Part shown: positions 28,698 to 32,818 of the stretch, piece by piece
Layout of the letters: each line of letters starts with the position of its first letter
Numbering within the stretch: position 1 is the first letter of the stretch
Origin: Desulfoplanes formicivorans
GTDB lineage: Bacteria; Desulfobacterota; Desulfovibrionia; Desulfovibrionales; Desulfomicrobiaceae
DNA: 64,000 bases
Direction of reading: 5' to 3'
NCBI RefSeq assembly: GCF_001748225.1
Contig: NZ_BDFE01000015.1
Coordinates: 487,437 to 551,436, forward strand
The notes under the pieces: model-generated
Told to the model about the DNA's origin: nothing
Database searches by the model: none
What the model saw: the letters and a program-made list of their open reading frames with translations, nothing else
Made by a program: the position numbers and the translations under genes

Positions 28698-29642
28698 TCA
28701 TTCCCTGACCAGATGGCGGCGGTATTGGAGATAAAAGTCCTTGAGGGCCTCGTAAGGGTCAAAGGCCGCCTCCTTGAGGTCTTCGTACTCCCCAAGGTGC
28801 AGGGATGTGTAGTTGAGGGTATCTGCGCCCTTGATGGCCCAGCGGATTTCCCATTCATCAATATAATTGATGGGATCAAGAAAATATTCTCCGATTTTTC
28901 CGGTGGTATCACGCAGGGTTGAAGGGCCGAACACCGGCCAGACAATGTAGAATCCGTCACCAATGCCGTAGTGGGCCAGGGTCTGGCCCATGTCTTCGGG
29001 AGAAATATCCTGAAGGGGTTCGATATGGTCGGAAACCTTGACCAGTCCACCGATGCCAAAGGTGGTGTTCATGGCAAAGGCGCCCACCTCTCTGGCGGCC
29101 TTGTCCAGTTTGAGCTGGAGAACACTGCTGACAAAGCGGATGGGAAAGGCCAGATTGTGGAAGACATTGTAGATTCCGGTACGCATCTGCTGGGGAAAAA
29201 CAGCCGCGTACACATTTGCAGTGGGTTTGAGAATCCAGAAGTAGAGCTTGTCGTTGACAACAAACATGGCCCGGTTGAAGGGCTCCAGGGGATCTGCAAT
29301 CGTGGATGCGGGATCTTCCGCCTCCATCAATGCCTCATCGTCCAGTTCATCGTAGTCCGTCTCCCAGTCGTCTTCCAGCTCATCGTCCCAGACATCCGTG
29401 TCTGTTGCAGAAGCCTGCAGGCCTGCATCCGTGGCGGTTCGGGCTTCCGGTGAAGGGGGCGTGTCTGCTTGAGATACAGCCGTTTGGGACGACAGGGGAA
29501 CGGGCTCGGCAACAACAGACGCTGACTTGGATCCGCAGGCCGTACACAGCGCCAGGCATATCAGCAGTGCCAGGTACCTCCCGAAACGGGTACAACGATG
29601 ACACCAAGAAGGCGTGGCCATGAAAAACACCTGGGAGATCAT
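28698..29642 (-). CDS. mlaA: MlaA-family outer-membrane lipoprotein
   Basis: Outer-membrane component that removes phospholipids from the outer leaflet and passes them to MlaC. The 314 residues have a signal sequence ending in a lipobox-like CTAC, a very acidic low-complexity stretch (~75-105, DELEDDWETDYDELDDE) and the MlaA domain (DPLEPFNRAMFVVND, then FAMNTTFGIGGLVKVSDHI). The acidic insert is not part of the usual domain. ATG overlaps the mlaC stop (ATGA); an ATG at 29621 is a possible shorter start. Last gene of mlaE-F-D-C-A. Confidence 0.93.
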   Translation of the reverse strand: MISQVFFMATPSWCHRCTRFGRYLALLICLALCTACGSKSASVVAEPVPLSSQTAVSQADTPPSPEARTATDAGLQASATDTDVWDDELEDDWETDYDELDDEALMEAEDPASTIADPLEPFNRAMFVVNDKLYFWILKPTANVYAAVFPQQMRTGIYNVFHNLAFPIRFVSSVLQLKLDKAAREVGAFAMNTTFGIGGLVKVSDHIEPLQDISPEDMGQTLAHYGIGDGFYIVWPVFGPSTLRDTTGKIGEYFLDPINYIDEWEIRWAIKGADTLNYTSLHLGEYEDLKEAAFDPYEALKDFYLQYRRHLVRE

Positions 29643-30241
29643 GACGGGTCCGCGGGTTGTTCGATTTTTTTTCTGACCTGTTCGAGCAGAACGTCTGGAG
29701 GATTTTTGGACAAAATGGAGCTGAACTGGGAACGATAGTTCTTGACCAGGCTGACGCCTTCCACAATGACGTCATACACTCGCCACTGGTCGTGTTTGAA
29801 ACGCAACATGTAGTCCAGGGGCACTTCCTTGTCGTTCCACAGGATATGGGTATTCACCCTGGCCTTGGTGGACGAGAGCATGATTTCCTTGTCAAAGACC
29901 ACTGGTTCGCCCTTATAGGCCCGGACTTTGTCCATGTAGATCTTTTGCAGCAGCTGGGCAAAGAGATCCCTGAACTGGTGACGCTGCTCACTGGAAAAGG
30001 ATTTCCAATACCGGCCGACAGCAAGACGGGTGACATCATTGAAGTCGAACAGCTGTTCACCCACCAGAACCAGCATCTCCTCCTGCTTTGTGAGGTTTGC
30101 TTCGTTTTTGTATTGTGGATCGGTCAGGATGAACAGGGCCTGCTCCACATGGGTCTTGACATGCTCCATGGGCCCGGTGGCAGCCCCAAGGGGCGTTGAA
30201 AGGGTCAAAAGGAACGCGAGAATGCAGAAGATTCGTGGCAT
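29639..30241 (-). CDS. mlaC: MlaC-family periplasmic phospholipid carrier
   Basis: Soluble periplasmic shuttle between MlaA and the MlaFED complex. The 200 residues start with a signal peptide (MPRIFCILAFLLTLSTPLGAA) and match the Ttg2D/MlaC family (LVGEQLFDFNDVTRLAVGRYW, LRFKHDQWRVYDVIVEGVS). ATG at 30241 is preferred over a TTG two codons earlier because GAGGA lies upstream. Coupled to mlaA by a 4-bp overlap. Confidence 0.93.
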   Translation of the reverse strand: MPRIFCILAFLLTLSTPLGAATGPMEHVKTHVEQALFILTDPQYKNEANLTKQEEMLVLVGEQLFDFNDVTRLAVGRYWKSFSSEQRHQFRDLFAQLLQKIYMDKVRAYKGEPVVFDKEIMLSSTKARVNTHILWNDKEVPLDYMLRFKHDQWRVYDVIVEGVSLVKNYRSQFSSILSKNPPDVLLEQVRKKIEQPADPS

Positions 30242-30291
30242 GAACAATATTCCTCGTTGTCAAAAGGTCCGCATGTCTGCGAACGGGTTGG

Positions 30292-30747
30292 TCATACCTT
30301 GCCGAAAATGTATTTGCTGATCAACTCTTCGAAATCGACCGTGGACTCGGTATCCACAATGACGCCGCCTTCGGGAATGGGTTCAAGACCCCCGCCCGGG
30401 GAGATCTTGATGTACTTGTCGCCGATGAGGCCGCTGGTTTTGACCGAGGCGATGGCGTCTTCGTCAATGGGCACGTCTTTCTGGATCTTCATGGACACCA
30501 TGGCCACCTGATTTTCCGGATCCAGGGTAATGGATTGCACCTGGCCGATGGGAACTCCGGCCATCTGGACAAAACCACCGGTCTTGAGGCCGGTGACATT
30601 GGTGAACCTTGCGGTGATTGTATAATAGTCGCCGCCCAAAAGCTCCATCTTGCCGAGCTTGACCGTAAGATAGGCAACACAAAGGCAGCCGATGATGAAA
30701 AAGATGCCGACAATGGATTCCTGTTTGAATCGTTTCATGGATGACAT
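30292..30747 (-). CDS. mlaD: MlaD-family MCE protein
   Basis: Inner-membrane-anchored lipid-binding ring of the Mla transporter. About 151 residues: one membrane helix (IVGIFFIIGCLCVAYLTVKLG, ~13-33) and one MCE domain (TGLKTGGFVQMAGVPIGQV, LIGDKYIKISPGG). ATG at 30747 follows GGGAG; two other in-frame ATGs are nearby. The C-terminus (VDFEELISKYIFGKV) is short, so there is no extra helical barrel domain. 18 bp after mlaF. Confidence 0.93.
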   Translation of the reverse strand: MSSMKRFKQESIVGIFFIIGCLCVAYLTVKLGKMELLGGDYYTITARFTNVTGLKTGGFVQMAGVPIGQVQSITLDPENQVAMVSMKIQKDVPIDEDAIASVKTSGLIGDKYIKISPGGGLEPIPEGGVIVDTESTVDFEELISKYIFGKV

Positions 30748-30765
30748 GACGCGATCTCCCAACCG

Positions 30766-31995
30766 TTAGTTCCTGCGACCGGTGCATGCGACTTCGGTCA
30801 CGGTGATGTGATTCGCCCTGCTGCGGGCAATGTGCCTGTCCAAATTTTCTTCGGGATCGCCAGGGGCGCATCCCATTTGTAGCGTGGCCGTGACGTCCTT
30901 GTCCTTGAACCCCTCGATGAACAGCTCGTGTCCCTGATGGGGAGCCCGGGCAATGACCGTGGCGATGTCGTGACATTCCTTTGTCGATATCCCCGGCAGC
31001 ACTCCCACGGCTGTGTAGCGGCCATACAAGGCCACGTGGATGTCCCGGGCAAGGATGGTCTGCCATGTACGGGCAAACGTTTCCATGACACGGTGCGCGG
31101 CAAGGGCGCCTATGCGTTCGGTCACGGCGTCAAGACCATGCATGTGCATGGTCAGGATGCAAAAGGGTTTGTCCTGTTCAACGCATTCCCTTTGGGCCAG
31201 TTCGAAATGGTTGTGAAGCTGGCTGTTGGTGCACAGGCCGGTCAGGTCATTTTTCAAAAGCTCCAGGCTGTTGATGAATTCGTCGATGACCGGTTGACGG
31301 GTCTGCTCCAGCTGCAGGGGAGATCCGTGAAACAGAATTCTGGCCTCATCAATGATGGCAATGCGGTCGGAAATGTAGAAGACATCCGGGATGTCATGGG
31401 AGACAAGGACAGCCGAGAAATTGAACTTCTGCTGGTAGTGGGCGATCATGGAAAGAACCGCGTTTTTCCTGATGGGATCAAGGCCGGTGGTTGGTTCGTC
31501 AAACAGAACGATCTTGGGCTCATTGATCAGGGCTCTTGCCAGGGCAACCCGTTTTTGCATGCCCCCGGAAAGTTGGGTCGGGTATTTGTGGCCCACTTCA
31601 CCAAGCTCCAGCTGTTCCATCTTGTCTTTTACTTTTTGGGCTATTTCCCGGGGATGCAGGGTGGTTTTTTCCCGCAGGGGCAGGGCGATATTTTCAAACA
31701 CCGTCATGGAATCGAACAGGGCGTTGTGCTGAAACATGTAGCTGCATTGGCGTTTCATGGCCTGGCGTTTTTTGCGGCTCATGGCGGCCAGAGGCTGTCC
31801 CATGAAAACGATTTCTCCGGCATCCGGAGTGAGCAGACCAATGATGTGCTTGAGAAAAACACTTTTGCCAACACCGCTTTTCCCGATGATCGTGGTGATC
31901 TCGCCTTCGTAGATGGTCAGATCGATCCCGTCGAGGATGGTTCGTTCCCCGAAACGTTTGGTAACGTTTTTGAATTCTACAAGAGGTGTGGGCAT
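30766..31995 (-). CDS. mlaF: MlaF ABC ATPase with C-terminal degenerate GGDEF-like domain
   Basis: ATPase of the Mla phospholipid transporter. Residues 1-~245 are a normal ABC domain: Walker A GKSGVGKSV (~38-46), signature LSGGMQKRVALARAL, Walker B IVLFDEPTTGLDP and switch VLVSHD. MlaF proteins usually end near 260-270 residues; this one has 409. The extra ~155 residues (30766-31245) follow the order of a GGDEF domain: NDLTGL, a four-helix stretch, LYGRYTAVGVLPG where an active enzyme has RYGGEEF, and a final VTATLQMGCAPG. The GG(D/E)EF residues are lost, so it should not make c-di-GMP; a sensing or regulatory role is inference. It sits 7 bp after mlaE and 18 bp before mlaD. Confidence 0.92.
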   Translation of the reverse strand: MPTPLVEFKNVTKRFGERTILDGIDLTIYEGEITTIIGKSGVGKSVFLKHIIGLLTPDAGEIVFMGQPLAAMSRKKRQAMKRQCSYMFQHNALFDSMTVFENIALPLREKTTLHPREIAQKVKDKMEQLELGEVGHKYPTQLSGGMQKRVALARALINEPKIVLFDEPTTGLDPIRKNAVLSMIAHYQQKFNFSAVLVSHDIPDVFYISDRIAIIDEARILFHGSPLQLEQTRQPVIDEFINSLELLKNDLTGLCTNSQLHNHFELAQRECVEQDKPFCILTMHMHGLDAVTERIGALAAHRVMETFARTWQTILARDIHVALYGRYTAVGVLPGISTKECHDIATVIARAPHQGHELFIEGFKDKDVTATLQMGCAPGDPEENLDRHIARSRANHITVTEVACTGRRN

Positions 31996-32002
31996 AACTG
32001 TT

Positions 32003-32818
32003 TTACAAGAGGAAGGAAGTGAGTACGTAATCGACGATGAGGACCCAGACGCAGGAAATGACCACTGCCGAGGTGGTGGCCATACCTACTCCCTTGGCTC
32101 CGAAACCGCCTTGACGGGTGTGGGTGAAATATCCCTGGAAGCTGCAGATGGTCGAAACCAGAAAGGCAAAGGCAATGGACTTGATGAACCCGCCGGTAAC
32201 GTCCTGCATGACGACGCTTGATTCCACCCGGTAGAAATAGATGCCCTTGTTCAGGCCAAGAAGCACGACTCCGGCGATGTAGCCGCCAATGATGCCGACC
32301 ACGTCGTACAAGGCCGTGAGCAGCGGAAAGGATATCAGGGACGCGGCCAGTTTGGGGCTGATCAGAAAGCGGATGGGATCAATGGCCATGGTGTCCAGGG
32401 CGTCGATCTGTTCGGAGATGCGCATGACCCCGATTTCAGCGGTCATGCTCGAACCTGCCCTGGCAGTGATCATGATGGCGGTAAGCACGGGTCCGAGTTC
32501 CCTGACCAGTGAAAGGGCCACGGCCGACCCCAGGGCCCCTTCGGAACCGAATTGCGTCAGGGTGTAGTAAAGCTGAAGTCCCAGAACCATGCCGGTAAAC
32601 AGGGCGACCAGGGCGATGATGGAAACGGATCTGGCCCCGATGAAATAGATCTGTTGCAGAATTTTGGAAGCCTGAAAGGGCAGGGAAAAAATTTTCACCA
32701 GTCCCTGGGCAGAAAAAATGGCATAGGCCCCGCACGCATTCATGATGCCAATGAGCAGCCTGCCAGCCGAGGCAAAAGGGGTCAGCATATGGATGGTAAA
32801 TGGGGACATGATTTTCAC
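32003..32818 (-). CDS. mlaE: MlaE-family ABC transporter permease
   Basis: Membrane subunit of the Mla transporter; 271 residues with five to six helices and the family signature (LVRELGPVLTAIMITARAGSS, then ISEQIDALDTMAIDPIRFLI). GTG at 32818 or ATG at 32809; neither has a strong ribosome site. First of five contiguous mla genes on this strand, 102 bp after mnmA, with a modest 7-bp hairpin in that gap (32869-32893). Confidence 0.95.
   Translation of the reverse strand: MKIMSPFTIHMLTPFASAGRLLIGIMNACGAYAIFSAQGLVKIFSLPFQASKILQQIYFIGARSVSIIALVALFTGMVLGLQLYYTLTQFGSEGALGSAVALSLVRELGPVLTAIMITARAGSSMTAEIGVMRISEQIDALDTMAIDPIRFLISPKLAASLISFPLLTALYDVVGIIGGYIAGVVLLGLNKGIYFYRVESSVVMQDVTGGFIKSIAFAFLVSTICSFQGYFTHTRQGGFGAKGVGMATTSAVVISCVWVLIVDYVLTSFLL

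Follow-up and report, generated by a model that had tools for sequence, protein, structure and literature searches.

The best-described relative of the locus considered here is the E. coli lipid transporter MlaFEDB (PDB 6xgy, 6xbd). Its ATPase, MlaF, depends on the STAS protein MlaB as a partner and has a C-terminal handshake extension of 25 residues. The extension (residues 247-269) clasps the partner subunit and is essential: without it the system does not work and the complex is left without MlaF and MlaB, whereas fitting a GCN4 dimerisation domain artificially at this position brings most of the function back (PMC7367683). Other ABC ATPases carry regulatory C-terminal domains that self-associate below the ATPase domains (PMC7367683). 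MetN, of the MetNI transporter, likewise has a compact alpha/beta domain at the C-terminal end of its ABC ATPase, which binds methionine. GGDEF domains (PF00990), the domains of diguanylate cyclases and of degenerate proteins such as FimX and CdgI, are usually attached to a sensor or EAL domain; fusion to a transporter subunit is found, for example, in the solved ammonium transporter chains 8qj3 and 8qpf, which belong to another transporter class than the one discussed here.

The window, a 64,000-nucleotide stretch of the Desulfoplanes formicivorans genome, encodes on its minus strand an MlaF of unusual length (30766-31995; ATG start, 409 amino acids, uninterrupted from start to stop). Residues 1-245 (31261..31995, minus strand) are an ABC ATPase domain (Pfam ABC_tran, E=2.8e-36), approximately 39% identical to that of E. 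coli MlaF, in which the Walker A, signature, Walker B and H-loop motifs are all kept as invariant alignment columns. Its closest solved structures by Foldseek are the MlaF proteins of E. coli, P. aeruginosa and A. baumannii (~39% identity), and these matches, together with the neighbouring mlaE, mlaD and mlaC genes, identify it as MlaF. The NCBIfam MlaF equivalog NF008809 is also its best NCBIfam match, with a score (200.5 bits) far below the cut-off of 441; that model appears to be tuned to the enterobacterial type of MlaF. The domain boundary near residue 245 is where the original prediction, made from the letters of the window, had placed it, and the 164 residues that follow (246-409; 30769-31260 without the stop codon, 30766..31260 with it, minus strand) take the place of the E. 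coli-type extension, which is absent. A frameshift or assembly error joining two genes, which that prediction had named as a case that would undo it, is excluded, since the same one-frame fusion recurs in dozens of independently assembled genomes.

The tail is a genuine, degenerate GGDEF domain, as had been proposed. Pfam PF00990 matches the full protein over residues 251-392 (E=1.8e-7, 31.5 bits) and the tail by itself more strongly (E=2.2e-8, 34.5 bits), in both cases above the gathering cut-off of 23.8 bits, and it also matches 33 of 35 homologous tails (E<=1). A profile built from these 35 tails finds dozens of solved GGDEF domains in the PDB, SadC, DgcB, WspR and DosC among them, with a best E-value of 7e-21. 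The tail modelled separately with AF2 (pLDDT 82, pTM 0.78) has the element order alpha-beta-alpha-alpha-beta-beta-alpha-beta-alpha-beta, as it does in the full-length AlphaFold model (pLDDT 87), and the top 50 Foldseek matches listed for it are GGDEF structures exclusively (TM ~0.7). Profile, fold, LTGL start motif and the glycine of the GH motif are shared with diguanylate cyclases and with FimX and CdgI. The likeness to MetN, in contrast, is one of architecture alone: MetN's domain belongs to another family, no sequence relation to the tail was found, and the window protein has no Pfam match to a methionine-binding domain of the MetN type.

What the window tail lacks, compared with those GGDEF proteins, is the metal-binding aspartate, the GG(D/E)EF motif and the c-di-GMP I-site. 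The motif alignment originally suggested (NDLTGL at the start, and LYGRYTA where RYGGEEF is expected) is correct, and the approximate former active-site hairpin, read directly and by alignment (30977..31016, minus strand), is now LYGRYTAVGVLPG. When 61 tails of extended MlaFs are aligned with the eight canonical GGDEF domains of the window's own genome, the metal-binding aspartate, the GG(D/E)EF motif, its second glycine and the invariant aspartate of GHxxGD are each found in none of the 61, so that the loss of all catalytic residues noted in one protein extends to the whole set. Structural positions fare otherwise: the LTGL start motif is retained in 50 of 61 tails, the glycine of the former GH motif in 59 and a late glycine in 53. 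The former GHxxGD aspartate position is occupied by His or Gln in 51 of the 61, which is a new and family-specific feature. The tail is predicted to be catalytically dead; an active diguanylate cyclase is ruled out by the complete absence of GG(D/E)EF and metal aspartate.

The gene lies in a complete shuttle-type Mla operon, mlaE-F-D-C-A, that has no mlaB. All of its genes are on the minus strand: mlaE (32003..32818; Pfam MlaE, E=4.2e-76) encodes a permease without a STAS domain, and the extended mlaF is followed by a short, E. coli-like MCE protein, mlaD (30292..30762; Pfam MlaD, E=1.4e-23), by the periplasmic lipid shuttle mlaC (29639..30247; Pfam MlaC, E=3.1e-44) and by the outer-membrane lipoprotein mlaA (28698..29642; Pfam MlaA, E=5.2e-66). 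E. coli MlaF shares the ATPase motifs and the operon with mlaE, mlaD and mlaC, and differs in its short extension and its dependence on MlaB. The order mlaE, extended mlaF, mlaD, mlaC and usually mlaA is repeated in 38 extended loci, the few exceptions being cut by a contig end or missing a neighbour (e.g. L260). None of these 38 operons has a STAS/MlaB gene or a STAS fusion, no STAS_2 match lies near the window operon in a search of its genome, and no partner gene other than mlaE, mlaD, mlaC and mlaA is conserved across the extended operons. The E. coli pairing of handshake extension and MlaB is not found here; a GGDEF-like domain stands in the extension's place and STAS is missing. STAS is likewise missing from those operons of the phylum that contain MlaC and a short-tailed MlaF, and these MlaFs also have no handshake helix. 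MlaB absence is thus not specific to the extended type, neither STAS nor the handshake helix is strictly required, and the notion that the tail strictly substitutes for MlaB is weakened.

Other Mla-like arrangements were met in the same survey. The window's genome has a second MCE system (L266, G000:C15:638000-650000), comprising a STAS-MlaE fusion, a 272-aa MlaF and a 353-aa MlaD, and a third MlaE (281 aa; L267, G000:C17:214000-226000) that adjoins an MlaD of 327 residues and near which this search detected no MlaF. Bdellovibrio-type loci (L103, L108, L120, L134, L132) contain a tandem pair of MlaF-like genes as well as a pair of MlaE genes, and in L132 two MlaF modules share a single 620-aa ORF.

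Whether the extension is common in the order had been left as a question, and it is: of 150 genomes sampled from the order, approximately 36 encode the extended frame, its ABC domain sharing 54-73% identity with the window's. In the phylum (Desulfobacterota), 34 of 297 genomes, the window's own included, give a full-length match, and a sharp E-value gap separates these (1e-137 or better) from matches to the ABC domain only. The extended form is thus present in many sulfate reducers and bacteria related to them; going by record titles, its members belong to Desulfovibrio, Desulfohalobiaceae, Desulfobacterales and unclassified deltaproteobacteria; none was found among 299 genomes of Pseudomonadota (E<=1e-105), and there was no full-length match among 195 genomes of Verrucomicrobiota, other phyla being covered by one set of 80 loci. 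A tree of the ABC domains places every one of the 39 extended rows in a single 53-row clade (SH-aLRT 99), which also contains 14 rows labelled short, of which L042 is merely cut by a contig end and L086 has an unrelated tail. This pattern is consistent with one gain and several losses or transfers, the tree leaving the direction of change unfixed; in some members of the clade the tail seems to have been lost. Some genomes of the order (L187-L192) encode an MlaF paralogue that belongs to the extended clade and has no tail, with no mlaE, mlaD or mlaC detected in the stretch around it that was covered. One locus (L212, G281:C15) has two extended MlaFs, the second a 451-aa MlaF-GGDEF-like ORF that comes after mlaA and bears a tail of the other subgroup. 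MlaFs of Opitutales and other Verrucomicrobiota (L086, L230, L238) end in a different tail of 136-144 residues, for which homology with the GGDEF-like tail is unsupported (hhalign probability 0.6%).

The tails share only 13-33% identity, with two invariant columns, and the tail surface is poorly conserved. Comparisons of close species pairs give dN/dS values mostly of 0.1-0.4 for the tail, against 0.03-0.2 for the ABC domain. Judged by these ratios, the tail evolves faster than the ABC domain yet is clearly constrained by purifying selection.

The explanation that we favour, with a probability of about one half, is that the tail serves as a dimer-bracing and possibly ligand-gated regulatory or structural domain of an Mla ATPase that has no MlaB. 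The ATPase of this MlaB-less, shuttle-type phospholipid transporter (MlaE-F-D-C-A) carries a GGDEF-derived C-terminus that has lost enzyme activity and nucleotide sites and would have been retained for its structure or for regulation. We infer that the two GGDEF-like domains of an MlaF dimer might meet beneath the ATPase domains, making both the dimer and its attachment to MlaE more stable, tasks that in E. coli fall to the 25-residue extension plus MlaB. Upon binding of a ligand or partner they might also switch the dimer between open and closed states, in the manner of MetN's C-terminal domain. An intramolecular gate, which the original prediction also raised, or a brace is plausible on three grounds that favour it together: the domain begins at residue 246, equivalent to the start of the E. 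coli extension; it comes from a family of dimers; and MlaB is absent. Dimers are the working form of canonical GGDEF domains, and strong homodimerisation was seen for two of the seven degenerate GGDEF domains of E. coli (PMC5635695). We also count in its favour the fold, the lack of STAS in the 38 operons, the alignment of the whole-protein model with MetN over ~370 columns (Foldseek), the constraint on the tail, and the fact that the second MlaE of the window's genome has a fused STAS alongside its 272-aa MlaF. Against it stand the short-tailed MlaFs that manage with neither STAS nor handshake helix, the apparent tail losses in the clade and the poorly conserved surface; most isolated E. coli GGDEF domains, moreover, did not homodimerise (PMC5635695).

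The alternative that survives best, though a doubtful one, is that the tail is a ligand sensor, binding c-di-GMP, GTP, ppGpp or a new nucleotide or metabolite and gating the ATPase, so that Mla transport responds to signalling. The host genome holds 13 other GGDEF matches, domains of the MetN type sense a ligand, and CdgI, a degenerate GGDEF protein with an intact I-site, binds c-di-GMP (PMC5635695). The I-site motif RxxD, upstream of the hairpin, is kept at its exact position in L269 and in six of the 61 aligned tails, the six belonging to one subgroup near the base of the clade; this subgroup (L070, L072, L160, L161, L169, L205, L269; e.g. HLRPNDTCSRYG) has a candidate c-di-GMP site. Relatives inside the same subgroup have lost RxxD, however, and the alignment finds neither A-site nor RxxD in the window tail, added to which the metal aspartate, second glycine and GHxxGD aspartate are gone throughout. 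The tie to c-di-GMP or GTP signalling that had been suggested for the window protein is unsupported. A bolder form of the idea has lipid recycling at the outer membrane of Desulfobacterota directly controlled by a second messenger, whether c-di-GMP through an I-site that survives or some other nucleotide, bound by the GGDEF-derived domain on the transporter ATPase; members of the RxxD subgroup would then still work as c-di-GMP receptors, the window type being a derived form. To that we give long odds.

It is also unlikely that the tail is a docking platform that brings a further protein, with or without a GGDEF domain (a diguanylate cyclase, for instance), to the transporter and does not act inside the MlaF dimer: degenerate GGDEF domains do form specific heteromeric contacts (PMC5635695), and in an uncultured bacterium a stand-alone, near-canonical GGDEF protein (RYGGEEM; L091:3775-4959) has its gene immediately upstream of a short mlaF, but the extended operons lack a conserved additional partner gene and the tail diverges rapidly. 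That the tail is an evolutionary relic, a folded spacer with no current function, would fit its fast divergence, the loss of all catalytic residues and its apparent loss in several lineages, and is improbable in view of purifying selection, a fold retained across many families, the kept LTGL motif and GH-motif glycine, and reading frames free of decay in dozens of genomes.

The original prediction knew of no described MlaF with a GGDEF-like domain, and the open literature searched likewise yielded no description of such a fusion; open papers that mention both MlaF and GGDEF name MlaF at most twice each, and none apparently deals with the fusion. The finding thus widens the range of forms known for MlaF and places a degenerate GGDEF domain in a setting new for it, while the system as such is of a familiar kind. 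The assembly and regulation of the Mla ATPase are unsettled even in E. coli, where MlaB and the short tail are both needed. Many bacteria that lack MlaB have a folded domain at exactly this junction, which makes the question of Mla assembly testable by domain deletion or swap, and an ABC lipid transporter can be added to the settings where dead GGDEF domains are known to have been put to new use.
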